The notes beneath the pieces are model-generated. The model made no database searches, was not told the DNA's origin, and saw only the letters and a list, made by a program, of their open reading frames with translations. A stretch of DNA of 64,000 nucleotides, taken from NCBI RefSeq assembly GCF_003330845.1, contig NZ_CP026121.1, positions 4,259,501 to 4,323,500 on the forward strand, in the 5' to 3' direction. This DNA is from Streptomyces sp. Go-475 (lineage in GTDB: Bacteria; Actinomycetota; Actinomycetes; Streptomycetales; Streptomycetaceae). Of this stretch, positions 19,627 to 64,000 are shown in pieces (within the stretch, counting starts at the first letter, position 1; each line of letters begins with the position of its first letter). The position numbers and the translations under genes were made by a program.

Positions 19627-21705
19627 GTGGCTGACGTACCTGCCGATCTTGCCGCAGTGTGGCCACGCGTATTGGAGCAACTCCTCGGGGAGGGCCGCGG
19701 CCAAGGCGTCGAGGCGAAGGACGAGCACTGGATCCGGCGCTGCCAGCCGCTCGCGCTGGTCGCGGACACCGCCCTGCTCGCCGTACCGAACGAATTCGCG
19801 AAGGGCGTGCTCGAGGGCCGGCTGGCGCCGATCGTCAGCGAGACGCTGAGCCGCGAATGCGGCCGCCCGATCCGGATCGCGATCACCGTCGACGACTCGG
19901 CGGGCGAGCCCCCGGCCACGCCGGCGCCCCCCGCCCGCCCCCAGCCGCGCTACGAGGAGCCCGAGCTCCCGTCCGCACGCCAGGAACGCGACCCGTACGA
20001 CGCCCGCCAGGACCGCGACGGGTATGAGGCCCGCCAGGACCGCGACGGCTACGACGGCCGCCCGGACCGCGACGGCTACGACGCGCGCCAGGAACGTGAC
20101 GCGTACGACAACCGCCAGGACCGCGACGGCTACGACAGCCGCCCGGACCGTGACGGTTACGAGGGGTACGGACGGCACCGCGCGGAGCCGCTGCCGGGGA
20201 CATCCGGCGATCAGCTTCCGCCTACGCGCGCAGACCAGCTTCCGACGGCCCGCCCGGCCTACCCCTCCGAGTACCAGCGCCCCGAGCCCGGCTCCTGGCC
20301 GCGGCCGACGCAGGACGACTACGGCTGGCAGCAGCAGCGCCTCGGCTTCCCCGACCGTGACCCGTACGCGTCACCGTCACAGGACTCCTACGGCGGGCAG
20401 GACTCCTACGGCTCCCCCAAGGAGCCCTACGGATCGCAGGACTACCGCCCGCAGCCCATGGAGCGCCCCTCCTACGAGCCGCCGCGCTCCGACTACGAGC
20501 CGTCACGCCCCGACTACGACCAGCGCGACCCGGTCCGCCGGGAGCTGCCGGAGCCGCCGCCCGGCTCGGGGCACGTGCACCGGGGCGGCCCGGTCGGCCC
20601 GAACCTGCCCACCACCGGCGCGCCCGGCCCGCTGGCCGCGCAGCCCGCGCCGGCGACCGGCCCGGGTGAGCCCACCGCGCGTCTGAACCCGAAGTACCTC
20701 TTCGACACGTTCGTCATCGGCGCCTCCAACCGCTTCGCGCACGCCGCCGCGGTCGCCGTCGCCGAGGCGCCGGCGAAGGCGTACAACCCGCTGTTCATCT
20801 ACGGGGAGTCCGGGCTCGGCAAGACGCACCTGCTGCACGCCATCGGGCACTACGCGCGCAGCCTCTACCCGGGCACGCGGGTGCGGTACGTCAGCTCGGA
20901 GGAGTTCACCAACGAGTTCATCAACTCCATCCGCGACGGCAAGGGCGACAGCTTCCGCAAGCGGTACCGCGAGATGGACATCCTGCTCGTCGACGACATC
21001 CAGTTCCTGGCGGACAAGGAGTCGACGCAGGAGGAGTTCTTCCACACGTTCAACACCCTGCACAACGCCAACAAGCAGATCGTGCTGTCCAGCGACCGGC
21101 CGCCCAAGCAACTGGTGACGCTGGAGGACCGGCTGCGGAACCGTTTCGAGTGGGGCCTGATCACCGACGTCCAGCCGCCGGAGCTGGAGACGCGCATCGC
21201 GATCCTGCGCAAGAAGGCGGTCCAGGAGCAGCTGAACGCCCCGCCGGAGGTGCTGGAGTTCATCGCGTCCCGGATCTCGCGGAACATCCGTGAGCTGGAG
21301 GGCGCGCTGATCCGGGTCACGGCGTTCGCCTCGCTCAACCGGCAGCCGGTGGACCTGGGGCTGACGGAGATCGTCCTCAAGGACCTCATCCCCGGCGGCG
21401 AGGACTCCACGCCGGAGATCACCTCGACGGCCATCATGAGCGCGACCGCCGACTACTTCGGCCTGACGATCGAGGACCTGTGCGGCAGCTCGCGAGGCCG
21501 CCAGCTCGTCACGGCCCGCCAGATCGCCATGTACCTGTGCCGTGAGCTGACGGACCTGTCGCTGCCGAAGATCGGCGCGCTGTTCGGGGGCCGCGACCAC
21601 ACGACGGTCATGCACGCGGACCGCAAGATCCGCAATCTCATGGCCGAGCGCCGCTCCATCTACAACCAGGTCACGGAGCTGACCAACCGCATCAAGAACG
21701 GCTGA
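19627..21705 (+). CDS. dnaA: Chromosomal replication initiator DnaA
   Basis: Binds DnaA boxes and opens oriC. 692 residues, larger than most DnaA because domain II is expanded, as in other Streptomyces. Domain I is at 1-90 ([15 protein letters not shown]). Domain II (about 95-350) is Pro/Tyr/Arg/Asp-rich and contains seven 9-residue tandem units of type RQDRDGYDA (118-180). Domain III AAA+ has Walker A GESGLGKT (393-400) and Walker B LLVDDIQ (D456, D457). The C-terminal DNA-binding helix-turn-helix ends with [18 protein letters not shown] start. Confidence 0.97.
19978..20166 (+). repeat. 27-bp tandem repeats in dnaA domain II
   Basis: Seven imperfect 27-bp units coding 9-residue repeats (consensus R-[QP]-[DE]-R-D-x-Y-[DE]-x) within the flexible linker of DnaA. 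Confidence 0.85.
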
Positions 21706-55008: not shown

Positions 55009-55092
55009 GCGCGGGTGGCGGAATAGGCAGACGCGCTGGATTCAGGTTCCAGTGCCCGCAAGGGCGTGGGGGTTCAACTCCCCCCTCGCGCA
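55009..55092 (+). tRNA. tRNA-Leu (anticodon CAG)
   Basis: An 84-nt class II tRNA with acceptor GCGCGGG/CTCGCGC (one G-T), anticodon arm CTGGA-TTCAGGT-TCCAG with CAG at 55043-55045, a variable arm (TGCCCGCAAGGGCG) and T-arm GGGGG-TTCAACT-CCCCC. CCA is not encoded (ACCG follows). Confidence 0.97.
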
Positions 55093-55099
55093 CCGTCGG

Positions 55100-60493: not shown

Positions 60494-60609
60494 GGCCCTT
60501 CTGATGGATCTCCGCGGCGTCGCGACGCCCGGCACACCCGCTCCCCGCACGCCGCTCGCACGCACCGAACGCCGCTCCTTCTCCCACGGAGATCCATCAG
60601 AAGGGCCCT
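60492..60609. repeat. 118-bp element with 23-bp perfect terminal inverted repeats
   Basis: Left arm 60492-60514 and right arm 60587-60609 are exact reverse complements (begin AGGGCCCTTCTGATGG), separated by 72 bp. The pairing continues after a one-base bulge with CGGGCC/GGCCCG outside. It may be a MITE-like or IS-derived element, or a very long terminator hairpin for the response-regulator transcript. No transposase gene nearby. Confidence 0.8.
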
Positions 60610-60641: not shown

Positions 60642-60659
60642 AAACCAGCGAGTTGGTTT
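60642..60659. promoter_or_regulatory. Operator-like palindrome upstream of the ArpA-like receptor gene
   Basis: AAACCA (60642-60647), GCGAGT spacer, TGGTTT (60654-60659), 39 bp before the receptor start. It resembles half-sites of autoregulatory elements (ARE) bound by gamma-butyrolactone receptors; likely autorepression. Confidence 0.5.
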
Positions 60660-60697
60660 CATTGCGTCGCCATCAGAGCCCTGCAGGGGAGCCACGG

Positions 60698-61393
60698 GTG
60701 ACCAAACAGGACCGGGCCGTCCGGACCCGCCTCGCGCTGATCCGGTCGGCGGCCGAACAGTTCGAGGCACGGGGGTACGTCCGGGCCAGTCTCGCGGAGA
60801 TCAGCGCGGGGGCCGGCGTCAGCTCCGGCGCGCTGCACTTCCACTTCGTGAACAAGGCCGCCGTGGCGGAGGCCGTCGAGGACGCCGCCGCCCTGGCACT
60901 GCGCCGGATCGGGCGCCGGGGCCGCGGCGGGGACGGGTGCGCCCTGCAGCGCCTGGTCGACGTCACCCACCAGGTCGCCCGGCTGCTGTGCGCCGACGTC
61001 GTGGTGCGGGCGGGGTTACGCCTCAACGCCGAGGCGGTCGACGGGCGGGTGCGCGACCTGCGCCGGGAGTGGCGGGAGTGCGTGCACGAGCTGCTGGCCG
61101 AGGCGGAGCGGCGGGGCGAACTCGCCGCCGGTGTGCCGCCGCACCGCACCAGCGCCGTCGTCCTCGCCGCCACGACCGGCATCGAGGTGCTGGCCCGGGA
61201 GGACCAAGGGTGGCTCGCGCGGCCCTCGTTGACCGACCTGTGGCAGCTGCTCCTGCCGTGCGTGGCGGCGCCGCACCTGGCCGGCGCGCTGGACCCGGCG
61301 GGCACCGGGCCGGAGGACGTGGACTTCGAGGCGGATCCGGGCGCGGAGCCAGATCGGGAGGAGACCGGCACGGCGGGGCTCGCGCTGCGGTAG
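60698..61393 (+). CDS. TetR-family gamma-butyrolactone receptor-like regulator (ArpA/ScbR type)
   Basis: 231 residues from GTG 60698 (AGGGGAG upstream). N-terminal DNA-binding domain: KQDRAVRTRLALIRSAAEQF, GYVRASLAEISAGAG, recognition part VSSGALHFHFVNK. This is the hallmark pattern of ArpA/ScbR/BarA. The ligand domain has VVVRAGLRLNAE (equivalent to the RLxxE region) and Trp125 in LRREWRECV, at the position of the ligand-contacting tryptophan of ArpA/CprB. The C-terminal ~30 residues are acidic. It could be a true receptor or a pseudo-receptor. It lies next to P450 and AfsA genes. Confidence 0.85.
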   Translation: MTKQDRAVRTRLALIRSAAEQFEARGYVRASLAEISAGAGVSSGALHFHFVNKAAVAEAVEDAAALALRRIGRRGRGGDGCALQRLVDVTHQVARLLCADVVVRAGLRLNAEAVDGRVRDLRREWRECVHELLAEAERRGELAAGVPPHRTSAVVLAATTGIEVLAREDQGWLARPSLTDLWQLLLPCVAAPHLAGALDPAGTGPEDVDFEADPGAEPDREETGTAGLALR

Positions 61394-61443
61394 CGACACT
61401 CCGGCTCCCCCTCTCGTGGCCGACAGTGTGTGAAGTGATGGCC

Positions 61444-61467
61444 AAAACAAACCGGATGCCAAGTTTT
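61444..61467. promoter_or_regulatory. ARE-like operator upstream of the P450 gene
   Basis: An AAAAC...GTTTT palindrome (61444-61448 and 61463-61467) that also contains ACAAACCGG, similar to autoregulatory elements. It is 58 bp before the P450 start and is a probable target of the adjacent receptor. Confidence 0.5.
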
Positions 61468-61524
61468 CTCCCCGCCCGGATCGCACCATGGTCTCCCAGC
61501 CTCTGGACCAAGGAGCGATGAGTC

Positions 61525-62823
61525 ATGGCACAGCAGGCCTGCCCCTTCCTGGCGGTCGACCCGTCCGGCCAGGACCTCTACGACGAGATATCCCGGATCC
61601 GTGCCCAGGGCCCGGCCGTGGAGGTGGAACTCCCCGGCGGCGTCAGGGCGTGGTGGATCAACGGCCTGGAGCTGAACAAGCGGCTCCTGGCCGGTCCCGA
61701 GACGAGCAAGGACGCCTACCAGCACTGGCCGGCCTGGATCAACGGGGACATCTCCCGCACCTGGCCGCTCGCCATCTGGGTCTCCGTGCGCAACATGGTC
61801 ACCGCCTACGGCGCCGACCACAGCCGGCTGCGCAAGCCGATGGCCGCTGCCTTCACCAAGCGCCGCGTCGACGCCCTCCTGCCGCGCGTCCAGGAGATCG
61901 TCGACCGTGCCCTGGACGACCTGGAGCAGGTCCCGAAGGGCGAAGTCGTCGACCTGCGGGCGGCGTTCGCGGCGCCGGTGCCGCACGAGGTGGTGTGCGA
62001 ACTCTTCGGCGTACCGCACGGCGAGGACGGTCCGCGGGCCGCGCTCTACCGCATCATCAACGGCTTCTTCGACACGGCGATCTCCCTGGAGGACGCCCAG
62101 GCCAACGCCGTCGAGCTCTACGCCACGCTGACCGCGTTCCTCCAGGACAAGCGCGCGCACCCGGCCGACGACCTGACGACCGCGCTCATCGCCGCCCGCG
62201 ACGAAGGCCACCTCAGCGAACAGGAGTTGATGGACAATCTGATCCTGCTGCTCACGGCGGGCTTCGAGACGACCGTCAACCTCATCGACAACACCGTGCA
62301 CAGCCTGCTCGCCCACCCGGAGCAGCTCGAACTCGTCCGCTCCGGGCAGGTGTCCTGGGAGGACGCCATCGAGGAGTCGCTGCGGTACGAGGCGCCGGGC
62401 GCCATGTCGGGCCTGCGCTACGCCGTCGAGGACATCGAGATCGAGCCGGGCCTCACGATCCCGAAGGGCGACCCGGTGGTCGTGTCCTTCGCCGGTGCCG
62501 GACGCGACCCCGAGCGGCACGGCCCGGACGCCGACCGGTTCGACGTCACCCGCGCCAGCAGGAGCGACCACATCTCCTTCGGCCACGGCGTCCACCACTG
62601 CCTGGGCCGGCCCCTGGCCATGGCCGAGGCGACGGCGGCCCTGACGTCCCTGTTCGACCGCTTCCCGCGGCTGGCCCTGGCCGATCCGTCCCGTCCGCCG
62701 AGGCGGCTCCGGTCGATCATCTCCACGGGGCACGAGTCGTTGCCCGTGCTGCTGCACGGCCGGGACACGGGCCCGCGCCCGGAGGAGACGCAGGCGGAGT
62801 CGGGGGCGCAGGCGATCAGGTAG
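61525..62823 (+). CDS. Cytochrome P450 of the autoregulator locus
   Basis: A 432-residue soluble bacterial P450. Heme loop FGHGVHHCLGRPLA with Cys359; I-helix AGFETT (245-250), where Thr pairs with Glu instead of the usual acidic-alcohol D/E-T arrangement being absent; ExxR as E284-S-L-R287. N-terminus MAQQACPFLAVDPSG. ATG with GGAGCGATGAGTC upstream. P450s beside afsA homologues oxidise the side chain or ring in several butyrolactone/butenolide hormone pathways; the same is inferred here. Its stop overlaps the convergent reductase stop by 8 bp. Confidence 0.92.
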   Translation: MAQQACPFLAVDPSGQDLYDEISRIRAQGPAVEVELPGGVRAWWINGLELNKRLLAGPETSKDAYQHWPAWINGDISRTWPLAIWVSVRNMVTAYGADHSRLRKPMAAAFTKRRVDALLPRVQEIVDRALDDLEQVPKGEVVDLRAAFAAPVPHEVVCELFGVPHGEDGPRAALYRIINGFFDTAISLEDAQANAVELYATLTAFLQDKRAHPADDLTTALIAARDEGHLSEQELMDNLILLLTAGFETTVNLIDNTVHSLLAHPEQLELVRSGQVSWEDAIEESLRYEAPGAMSGLRYAVEDIEIEPGLTIPKGDPVVVSFAGAGRDPERHGPDADRFDVTRASRSDHISFGHGVHHCLGRPLAMAEATAALTSLFDRFPRLALADPSRPPRRLRSIISTGHESLPVLLHGRDTGPRPEETQAESGAQAIR

Positions 62824-63739
62824 CCGGCAGCTCGCGCAGGAACGAGCGGTACCAGGGGGCCGCGCGCCTGAATCCGGCCGCGAAGCCCTCGCCGGGGGAG
62901 CAGTCGAGGTCCTTCCAGAAGGCGTCGTCCACGAACCAGTGGTCGACGGTGAGCATGCCGAGGTGATGGAGGGCGAGCGGCGACCCGGCGGCCCGGTCAA
63001 GGGCGGTGGCTACGTCCACCGCCGCACCGCCGCCGGGCTCCCCCAGGTGCTCGCGCACGGCCCCGAGCAGCTCCGGAACCGTCACCGGCTCGGGGTGGCC
63101 GACGTGGTGCGCGCCGTCGGCGTGCGCCGGGGACAGCGCCGCGGCCACGGCCGCGCGGCCCAGGGTGTCGACGTCGATCATCGACTGGAGCGCCGTGCAG
63201 CCGGTCACGGTCGCCGACAACTCCCGCAGCAGCCGGACCAGTCCGGGGACGACCCACCGGTCGCCCTCGCCGTACACCAGGTGCGGCCGCAGCACCATGC
63301 CGCCCGCGCCGAGAACGTGCTGTTCGGCGGCGGCCCGGGTGCGGCTGGTGGCCGACGCGGGCGCGATCGGCACCTCGCCGGGGCGTACGCCGCGGAAGGG
63401 TCCCCGGCCGTAGACGGCGGCCGTGCTCACGTACACGATCCGGCGCACCCCGGCGCGCACGGCCTCTTCGACCAGGGCCCTGGTGCCCCGGTCGTTGACG
63501 GCCTCGGCGGTCTCGGCGTCGCCGCCGATCCGGGTGGCGCAGTGCACCAGGACGTCGGTGTCCGCGCACGCGCCGCGCAGCGAGGCCGGGTCGGACAGGT
63601 CGCCGTGGACGGTGTCGTTCCCGGTCCCCGCGCGCCGGGACAGCGTCCGCACCCGGACGCCGGGACGGCTACGGGCCGCGGCGACCGCGCGGCTGCCGAC
63701 GAAACCGCTCGCGCCGGTGATCAGAAAGGTGACCGTCAC
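62816..63739 (-). CDS. NAD(P)-dependent epimerase/dehydratase-like (extended SDR)
   Basis: 307 residues from a GTG that overlaps the AfsA-like stop (GTGA), hence coupled to it. Rossmann motif TGASGFVGS (8-16), then HCATRIGGDAETAEAVNDRG and YVSTAAVYG. The usual YxxxK is not seen: the aligned stretch reads T131-S-R-T-R135, so catalysis may be altered. Reductases of this type process the AfsA product in butyrolactone biosynthesis (BprA/ScbB-like step). The role is inferred from context. Confidence 0.85.
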   Translation of the reverse strand: MTVTFLITGASGFVGSRAVAAARSRPGVRVRTLSRRAGTGNDTVHGDLSDPASLRGACADTDVLVHCATRIGGDAETAEAVNDRGTRALVEEAVRAGVRRIVYVSTAAVYGRGPFRGVRPGEVPIAPASATSRTRAAAEQHVLGAGGMVLRPHLVYGEGDRWVVPGLVRLLRELSATVTGCTALQSMIDVDTLGRAAVAAALSPAHADGAHHVGHPEPVTVPELLGAVREHLGEPGGGAAVDVATALDRAAGSPLALHHLGMLTVDHWFVDDAFWKDLDCSPGEGFAAGFRRAAPWYRSFLRELPAT

Positions 63740-64000
63740 GACGGGGACCGTACCTCCGCCGTCCGCGCGGAGGTCAGCGTGGCGGTGAAGACGGCCTCGC
63801 CGTCCTGCCGTCCCGACACGCGTACGGTCACTTCCTCCGGGTCCTCGTCGAGCAGCTCCGTCTCCAGCAGGCACGGGCTGCGCAGTTCGGCGTACCGGGC
63901 GAAGTCGGCCGTCATCGTGCGGGGCCGGAAGGGGCGTTGACCGGACGCGGCGGCCGCGGCCTGGCGGGCTGCCTCGAACAGGACCATGCCGGGAACGTGG
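63736..64000 (-). CDS. AfsA/ScbA-family butyrolactone synthase, C-terminal fragment (cut by window edge)
   Basis: The last 88 codons of a leftward gene whose 5' part lies beyond the window. The visible sequence opens with HVPGMVLFEAARQA, the diagnostic second AfsA hot-dog repeat motif, followed by RSPCLLETELLDEDPEEVTV. AfsA condenses dihydroxyacetone phosphate with a beta-ketoacyl chain to start gamma-butyrolactone or butenolide hormones. It shares an operon with the SDR gene and sits opposite the receptor and P450. The internal ATG at 63987 is not a real start. Confidence 0.88.
   Translation of the reverse strand, partial: HVPGMVLFEAARQAAAAASGQRPFRPRTMTADFARYAELRSPCLLETELLDEDPEEVTVRVSGRQDGEAVFTATLTSARTAEVRSPS

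Follow-up and report, generated by a model that had tools for sequence, protein, structure and literature searches.

Which hormone system is encoded at the right-hand end of the stretch studied here, what might it control, and how did it come to lie near a replication origin? The stretch, called the window below, comprises 64,000 nucleotides of Streptomyces sp. Go-475 (G000:C1:4259501-4323500) on a single contig of 8,570,609 bp, and the locus begins at window position 60642 and continues past the right edge. A sequence-only reading had seen here a receptor-like TetR regulator, a cytochrome P450 (P450), a short-chain dehydrogenase/reductase (SDR), and an AfsA-family synthase, i.e., the sender and receiver genes of a gamma-butyrolactone or butenolide signal. 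Comparison of sequences across genomes makes it quite probable that these genes belong to a core-region gamma-butyrolactone/butenolide circuit inherited in one Streptomyces group, comprising a synthase-SDR pair, a second receptor (R2), an optional P450 and first regulator (R1), and matching operator-like sites that include one at a distant CprB-like gene. The hormone system is genuine, has been well preserved, and belongs to a known kind. It provides one predicted circuit at one inherited place for a Streptomyces group, together with a candidate target; the points of most interest are an active-site change shared among the SDRs and the operator-like site that accompanies the locus at the CprB-like gene.

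Gene content of the locus

Profile and motif matches confirmed all four genes in the window. DNA to its right (L011, in which coordinates equal window positions minus 58499) supplied the part beyond the edge, namely the rest of the synthase, an operator-like site (64870-64887), and R2. The gene order is R1 (60698..61393, + strand, start codon picked by eye), P450 (61525..62823, +), SDR (62816..63739, -), synthase (63736..64821, -), R2 (64982-65761, +, outside the window), and a DUF2252 gene (+), with histidine kinase and response regulator genes on the left flank. The P450 and SDR genes are convergent, and the SDR and synthase genes overlap by 4 bp; the C-terminal part of the synthase (63736..64000, its last 88 codons) is inside the window.

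The synthase carries two AfsA hotdog domains (99.5 and 54.1 bits; Pfam cut-off, 24), so that the first repeat, whose loss would have spoken against the family assignment, is present, and it passes the NCBI ScbA_BarX_GamBu equivalog (343 bits; cut-off, 200). No further AfsA match was found in the Go-475 genome. By analogy with its family, the synthase would form a butenolide phosphate from DHAP and a beta-keto thioester. The P450, which carries the AGFETT, ESLR, and FGHGVHHCLG motifs and has CYP154A1 (1odo) as its best solved relative by sequence (387 bits), would oxidize the side chain of the hormone.

Distribution and inheritance

An AfsA relative (E ≤ 1e-10) was present in 243 of 295 Streptomyces genomes, and a synthase with at least 67% identity to that of Go-475 in 12 (Go-475 included), the next best reaching 53%. 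A thirteenth genome (G130) has R2 at 82% identity and a synthase interrupted by a contig end. A survey of named records covered the best 80 of 106 confirmed loci and gave a core set of 40 (L014-L052 and L058) with synthase identities of at least 60%, all of which adjoin the DUF2252 gene wherever the contig extends that far. In the synthase tree, from which a length filter removed L050 (core) and L060, 39 of the 40 loci formed one clade with Go-475 (support 100/100), and Go-475 and L014-L034 formed a subclade (100/100) containing every P450-bearing locus. Because the same place is held in 40 loci of named records, comparison identifies this as a core-region hormone locus inherited in one Streptomyces group. 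The synteny of these loci led us to reject a one-off insertion near the origin.

The P450 was present in 20 of the 40 loci and R1 in 17, with neither in the stretch examined of 19, and one contig stops after the SDR. Judged by gene content, the module of P450 and R1 is optional. In L018, L032, and L034 the P450 is present with no R1 beside it; the module can therefore lose R1. The locus is also found in S. viridochromogenes DSM 40736 (L024), and a butyrolactone, 'factor 1,' is listed from S. viridochromogenes (PMC6930871).

Codon 7 of the Go-475 synthase is TTA. A TTA lies in the aligned stretch of 21 of the 40 synthase orthologues, and at the seventh codon of that stretch in 13 of those, where the stretches of L037 and L042 may begin after codon 1. 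R1 has a single in-frame TTA, as do 5 of its 17 orthologues, and none occurred in the P450 (20), SDR (39), or R2 (45) sequences examined. TTA codons generally place expression under the control of bldA. The TTA in the synthase would make hormone production depend on bldA and, hence, on development.

Receptors

R1 passes the NCBIfam model ScbR_bind_reg (181.6 bits; cut-off, 150) and belongs to the ScbR family rather than to unrelated TetR proteins; R2 and the distant CprB-like protein also pass this cut-off. Synthase and receptors alike exceed curated cut-offs, which upholds the proposal of an AfsA-type sender-receiver locus. The choice of receptor had to be revised. The ArpA-like TetR in the window, R1, had been cast in that role, but in a 45-protein tree that included four reference chains, for which the program warns of long branches, it was R2 and its relatives that clustered with the ligand-binding proteins AvaR1 and TylP, both of solved structure (support 100/95). 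R1 and its relatives formed a clade of their own apart from these (100/99), and the distant gene product clustered with CprB 1ui5 (100/99). R2 scored 194 bits against AvaR1, and R1 scored 69 bits against AvaR1 and 74 bits against CprB.

Based on the tree, R1 was rejected as the hormone receptor, and R2, encoded divergently from the synthase, is the likely receptor, of the AvaR1/TylP type. R1 is a probable pseudo-receptor because its clade is separate and its scores to AvaR1 and CprB are low, in a tree without any named pseudo-receptor. The C-terminal tail of R2 is encoded by successive 15-bp repeats (L011 7086-7250, i.e., window 65585-65749).

Operator-like sites

Promoter alignments revealed conserved palindromes between the synthase and R2, upstream of R1 (AAACCAGCGAGTTGGTTT, 60642..60659, + strand), and upstream of the P450 (AAACCGGATGCCAAGTTT, 61449..61466, +). 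A strict pattern derived from these sites, AWACSN9GTTT, was matched in 36 of 40 synthase/R2 stretches (L026, a contig without R2, being excluded), 18 of 18 R1 stretches, and 19 of 21 P450 stretches, those of Go-475 included; recovery of the locus sites is by construction because the pattern was drawn from them. Genome-wide the pattern gave 12 hits in 9 places, 3 of which are the locus sites, and the reversed pattern gave 8 hits, which puts most of the other places at chance level.

One of these places, at L124 1501-1518 (G000:C1:1419108), lies upstream of what we take to be an SsgB-like sporulation gene. The site is identical in six genomes and not palindromic; it was set aside as a target and is probably another promoter element. 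A place near a symporter gene (labeled by eye), identical in G124 and near-identical in G296, was not adopted as a target, and three remaining places had no visible link. A palindrome common to G124, G009, and G295, inspected in two of them, was not found in Go-475 with that pattern and was dropped.

An independent check used the autoregulatory element (ARE) of AvaR1, an 18-bp palindrome with the consensus AWWCCRBBHDDNMSGTWT (PMC5744401). With up to two mismatches it gave 11 hits in 96.5 kb of Go-475 DNA, 3 of them the locus sites. On the better strand, the mismatches numbered 1 for synthase/R2, 2 for R1, 2 for the P450, and 1 for the CprB-like gene, which makes all four ARE-like. A second ARE-like pattern, at two mismatches, gave 8 hits versus 5 when reversed and yielded no further lead outside the locus. 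In the circuit we propose, R2 would repress all four promoters until hormone is bound, and R1 would close the circuit as a pseudo-receptor.

A distant candidate target

The sequence-only reading had left the regulated target unnamed. A candidate is now the CprB-like gene at 6.83 Mb, 2.5 Mb from the locus, which has a strict-pattern site at -168 to -151. This site was kept in all 14 locus-bearing genomes aligned and was missing in G092, where no AfsA match was found. With a stricter pattern, the site was located in 13 of 295 genomes, namely the 12 with a synthase of at least 67% identity and G130; the CprB-like gene itself occurs in 102 of the 295. In G160, the CprB-like gene is 91% identical and its promoter otherwise similar, the distant site is decayed, and nothing of the locus lies between a response-regulator remnant and DUF2252. 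Together with the loci that have or lack P450 and R1, G160 provides a natural gain/loss contrast.

G131, G211, and G142 retain the distant site, and no R1 or P450 was found in 5 to 10 kb of their flanking DNA at the SDR end of the locus. As these genomes lack R1 there and still have the site, R2 is its likely binder. Published links point to cpr genes as targets of such receptors: SabR1 represses cprC (PMC6930871), and the cprA promoter is bound by ScbR and ScbR2, with ScbR2 also linked to cprB (PMC4595836). On these precedents, our best guess is that a CprB-like relay is one distant target of the circuit. The CprB-like regulator would then pass the signal to antibiotic and sporulation genes.

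Several observations weigh against this picture. The isoelectric points of the receptor cores (9.23 for R1, 6.34 for R2) fit the textbook R1/R2 split, and those of the full-length proteins (6.1 and 7.94) fail to separate R1 from R2; the receptor tree, as said, comes with a long-branch warning. The distant-site pattern was built from 14 promoters, and 11 of the 13 positives had contributed to it, G099 and G130 being the only ones held out. Part of the match between locus and site is attributable to shared descent, as both follow a single group. For the remaining 282 genomes, absence of the locus means that no synthase above 53% identity was found, and drafts can hide a locus, as G130 illustrates. 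Finally, G122, which lacks a synthase of the Go-475 clade, carries a match to the strict pattern in the upstream region of its CprB-like gene, the 1 case among 15 near CprB-like promoters without such a synthase, a set that omits L191 and L192 (G027 and G132), for which no CprB-like start was obtained.

It may also be that the hormone is made and that the distant site serves autoregulation by the CprB-like protein, not R2. In S. coelicolor, the cprB promoter is bound by CprB itself, at -47 to -21 (PMC4150764), which lends this explanation some weight. We nevertheless consider it rather unlikely: a separate block at about -50 to -23 is recognizable in 15 of 15 genomes aligned, among them G092, which has no AfsA, whereas the -168 to -151 site follows the 14 locus-bearing genomes and the 13 of the 295 in the wider search, and is not found in G092.

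The SDR and its altered active site

The absence of a clear YxxxK from the SDR (an Epimerase/3Beta_HSD extended SDR), pointed out in the sequence-only reading, is genuine and common to its relatives. Thr131 and Arg135 replace the Tyr and Lys (TSRTR in Go-475, TSR[T/S]R among relatives), so the protein lacks the catalytic pair of a classical extended SDR reductase, and a profile alignment places these residues opposite Y146 and K150 of 6wjb. Among the query and the best 120 of 1028 homologues, all 121 have Arg in place of the Lys; the Tyr position is occupied by Thr in 112, by Ala in 7, and by Val in 2. The Arg is also kept in 96 of 98 locus SDRs; the remaining 2 rows look misaligned. The glycine-rich motif is retained. 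A structure model (predicted local distance difference test score, 95.4) matched mostly sugar-nucleotide epimerases and dehydratases, and the fold alone is therefore silent on the reaction step.

From its neighborhood beside the synthase and an R2-like receptor, and from the description in PMC5735094, we take the SDR to be of the JadW2/BarS2/GblE type. Enzymes of this type are called essential for butyrolactone synthesis, and their step is called unclear, in the same source, which places ScbC beside BprA-type reductases; another describes ScbC as an epimerase-like enzyme (PMC7480387). Within the circuit, the SDR would perform a later step after the synthase. The essentiality of the JadW2/GblE-type gene reportedly goes back to a study of barS2 of S. 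virginiae. A search of the open library found no mention of 'YxxxK' in its best-matching literature. Since an enzyme type described as essential shares this loss of YxxxK, its unclear step can be tested directly via two residues.

We tentatively raise the possibility that the synthase-linked SDRs are a distinct branch in which Tyr/Lys gave way to Thr/Arg for the missing step, such as reduction of the butenolide phosphate's ring double bond, and not for ketone reduction, with the circuit coupled to a CprB-like relay through an operator that is gained and degenerates in step with the locus. The replacement of both active-site residues could instead mean that the SDR has lost its catalytic activity or acts structurally. 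This is unlikely in view of the conservation of the replacement (the invariant Arg in the query and best 120 homologues), the retained glycine-rich motif, and the essentiality ascribed to a gene of this type (PMC5735094).

Place near the origin

The Bac_DnaA domain of dnaA begins at window position 20683, and the locus therefore starts about 40 kb to the right of dnaA, as proposed; a tRNA-Leu (CAG; 55009-55094) lies on its left. The shared place of the locus is about 43 kb right of dnaA in Go-475, and synthase-dnaA distances were about 40 to 55 kb in 7 of 8 genomes measured, the exception being S. tuirus at about 104 kb if its record is contig C1; in G281 the two genes are on separate contigs. 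Such a place had been called unusual. It is indeed rare among AfsA loci, yet it is inherited in a species group, by synteny, dnaA distances, and the synthase clade, and is no isolated oddity.

In single-contig genomes, 1 of 24 further AfsA hits fell in the central tenth, among the matches listed (to ~1e-54), with another at 0.449. This count was made by hand with rounded lengths and an origin assumed central, and five rows of G012, G118, G137, and G290 were omitted because the DUF2252 gene is far from the middle there. G172 has an empty site, with kinase, response regulator, and DUF2252 as neighbors and the response regulator directly beside DUF2252; it was the only clean one among 18 stretches, as G130 has R2 and a cut synthase and the other 16 have a different left flank or are cut. 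Rarity near the origin and the empty site would both suit a recently acquired, antibiotic-linked autoregulator locus that landed here in Go-475 by chance, but this is improbable, being contradicted already by the conserved place, the same DUF2252 flank in core loci reaching that far, the single synthase clade, and the finding that no polyketide synthase or nonribosomal peptide synthetase was noticed by eye in translated open reading frames over about 32 kb rightward, where a profile scan was not made.

Comparison with known systems

An oxidized, possibly new hormone had been suggested for this locus. The P450 does suggest an oxidized side chain; the combination of AfsA, P450, and epimerase-type SDR is already described in S. 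filipinensis (PMC7480387) and is therefore no argument by itself for a new hormone. That cluster (SfbR, Sfb4 P450, Sfb5 SDR, SfbR2, and SfbA) shares with ours a synthase, P450, SDR, receptor, and pseudo-receptor, as well as ARE sequences, but has another gene order and SARP and StrR-family regulators (PMC7480387). By description, S. rochei SrrX, SrrG, and SrrO likewise comprise a synthase, an NAD-dependent dehydrogenase, and a P450, with SrrO oxidizing the side chain at C-6'; unlike our locus, this SRB butenolide system is borne by plasmid pSLA2-L, together with genes for phosphatase and thioesterase (PMC7564063).

Also by description, JadW1-JadW2 of S. venezuelae and GblA-GblE-GblR of Rhodococcus jostii resemble our locus in synthase, NAD-epimerase/dehydratase-type enzyme, and receptor, whereas the account of them in PMC5735094 leaves a P450 unmentioned. 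The S. venezuelae receptor JadR3 binds SVB1, a saturated gamma-butyrolactone (PMC6930871). In the SAB butenolide system of S. ansochromogenes, SabR1 represses the synthase, its own gene, the gene of a second receptor, and a member of the cpr genes (cprC), much as predicted here for R2; it differs in its genes (sabAPD), with sabP a phosphatase and sabD a dehydrogenase, and the account in PMC6930871 names no P450.

An inverted repeat beside the locus

A perfect inverted repeat lies at window 60496-60605, between the response regulator gene and R1, with arms of at least 19 bp spaced 72 bp apart. No second copy was found in the window with up to 3 mismatches allowed. Of 228 loci, 224 lacked an exact copy, the other four being Go-475's own DNA. 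The repeat might represent a terminator or a small mobile-element remnant.

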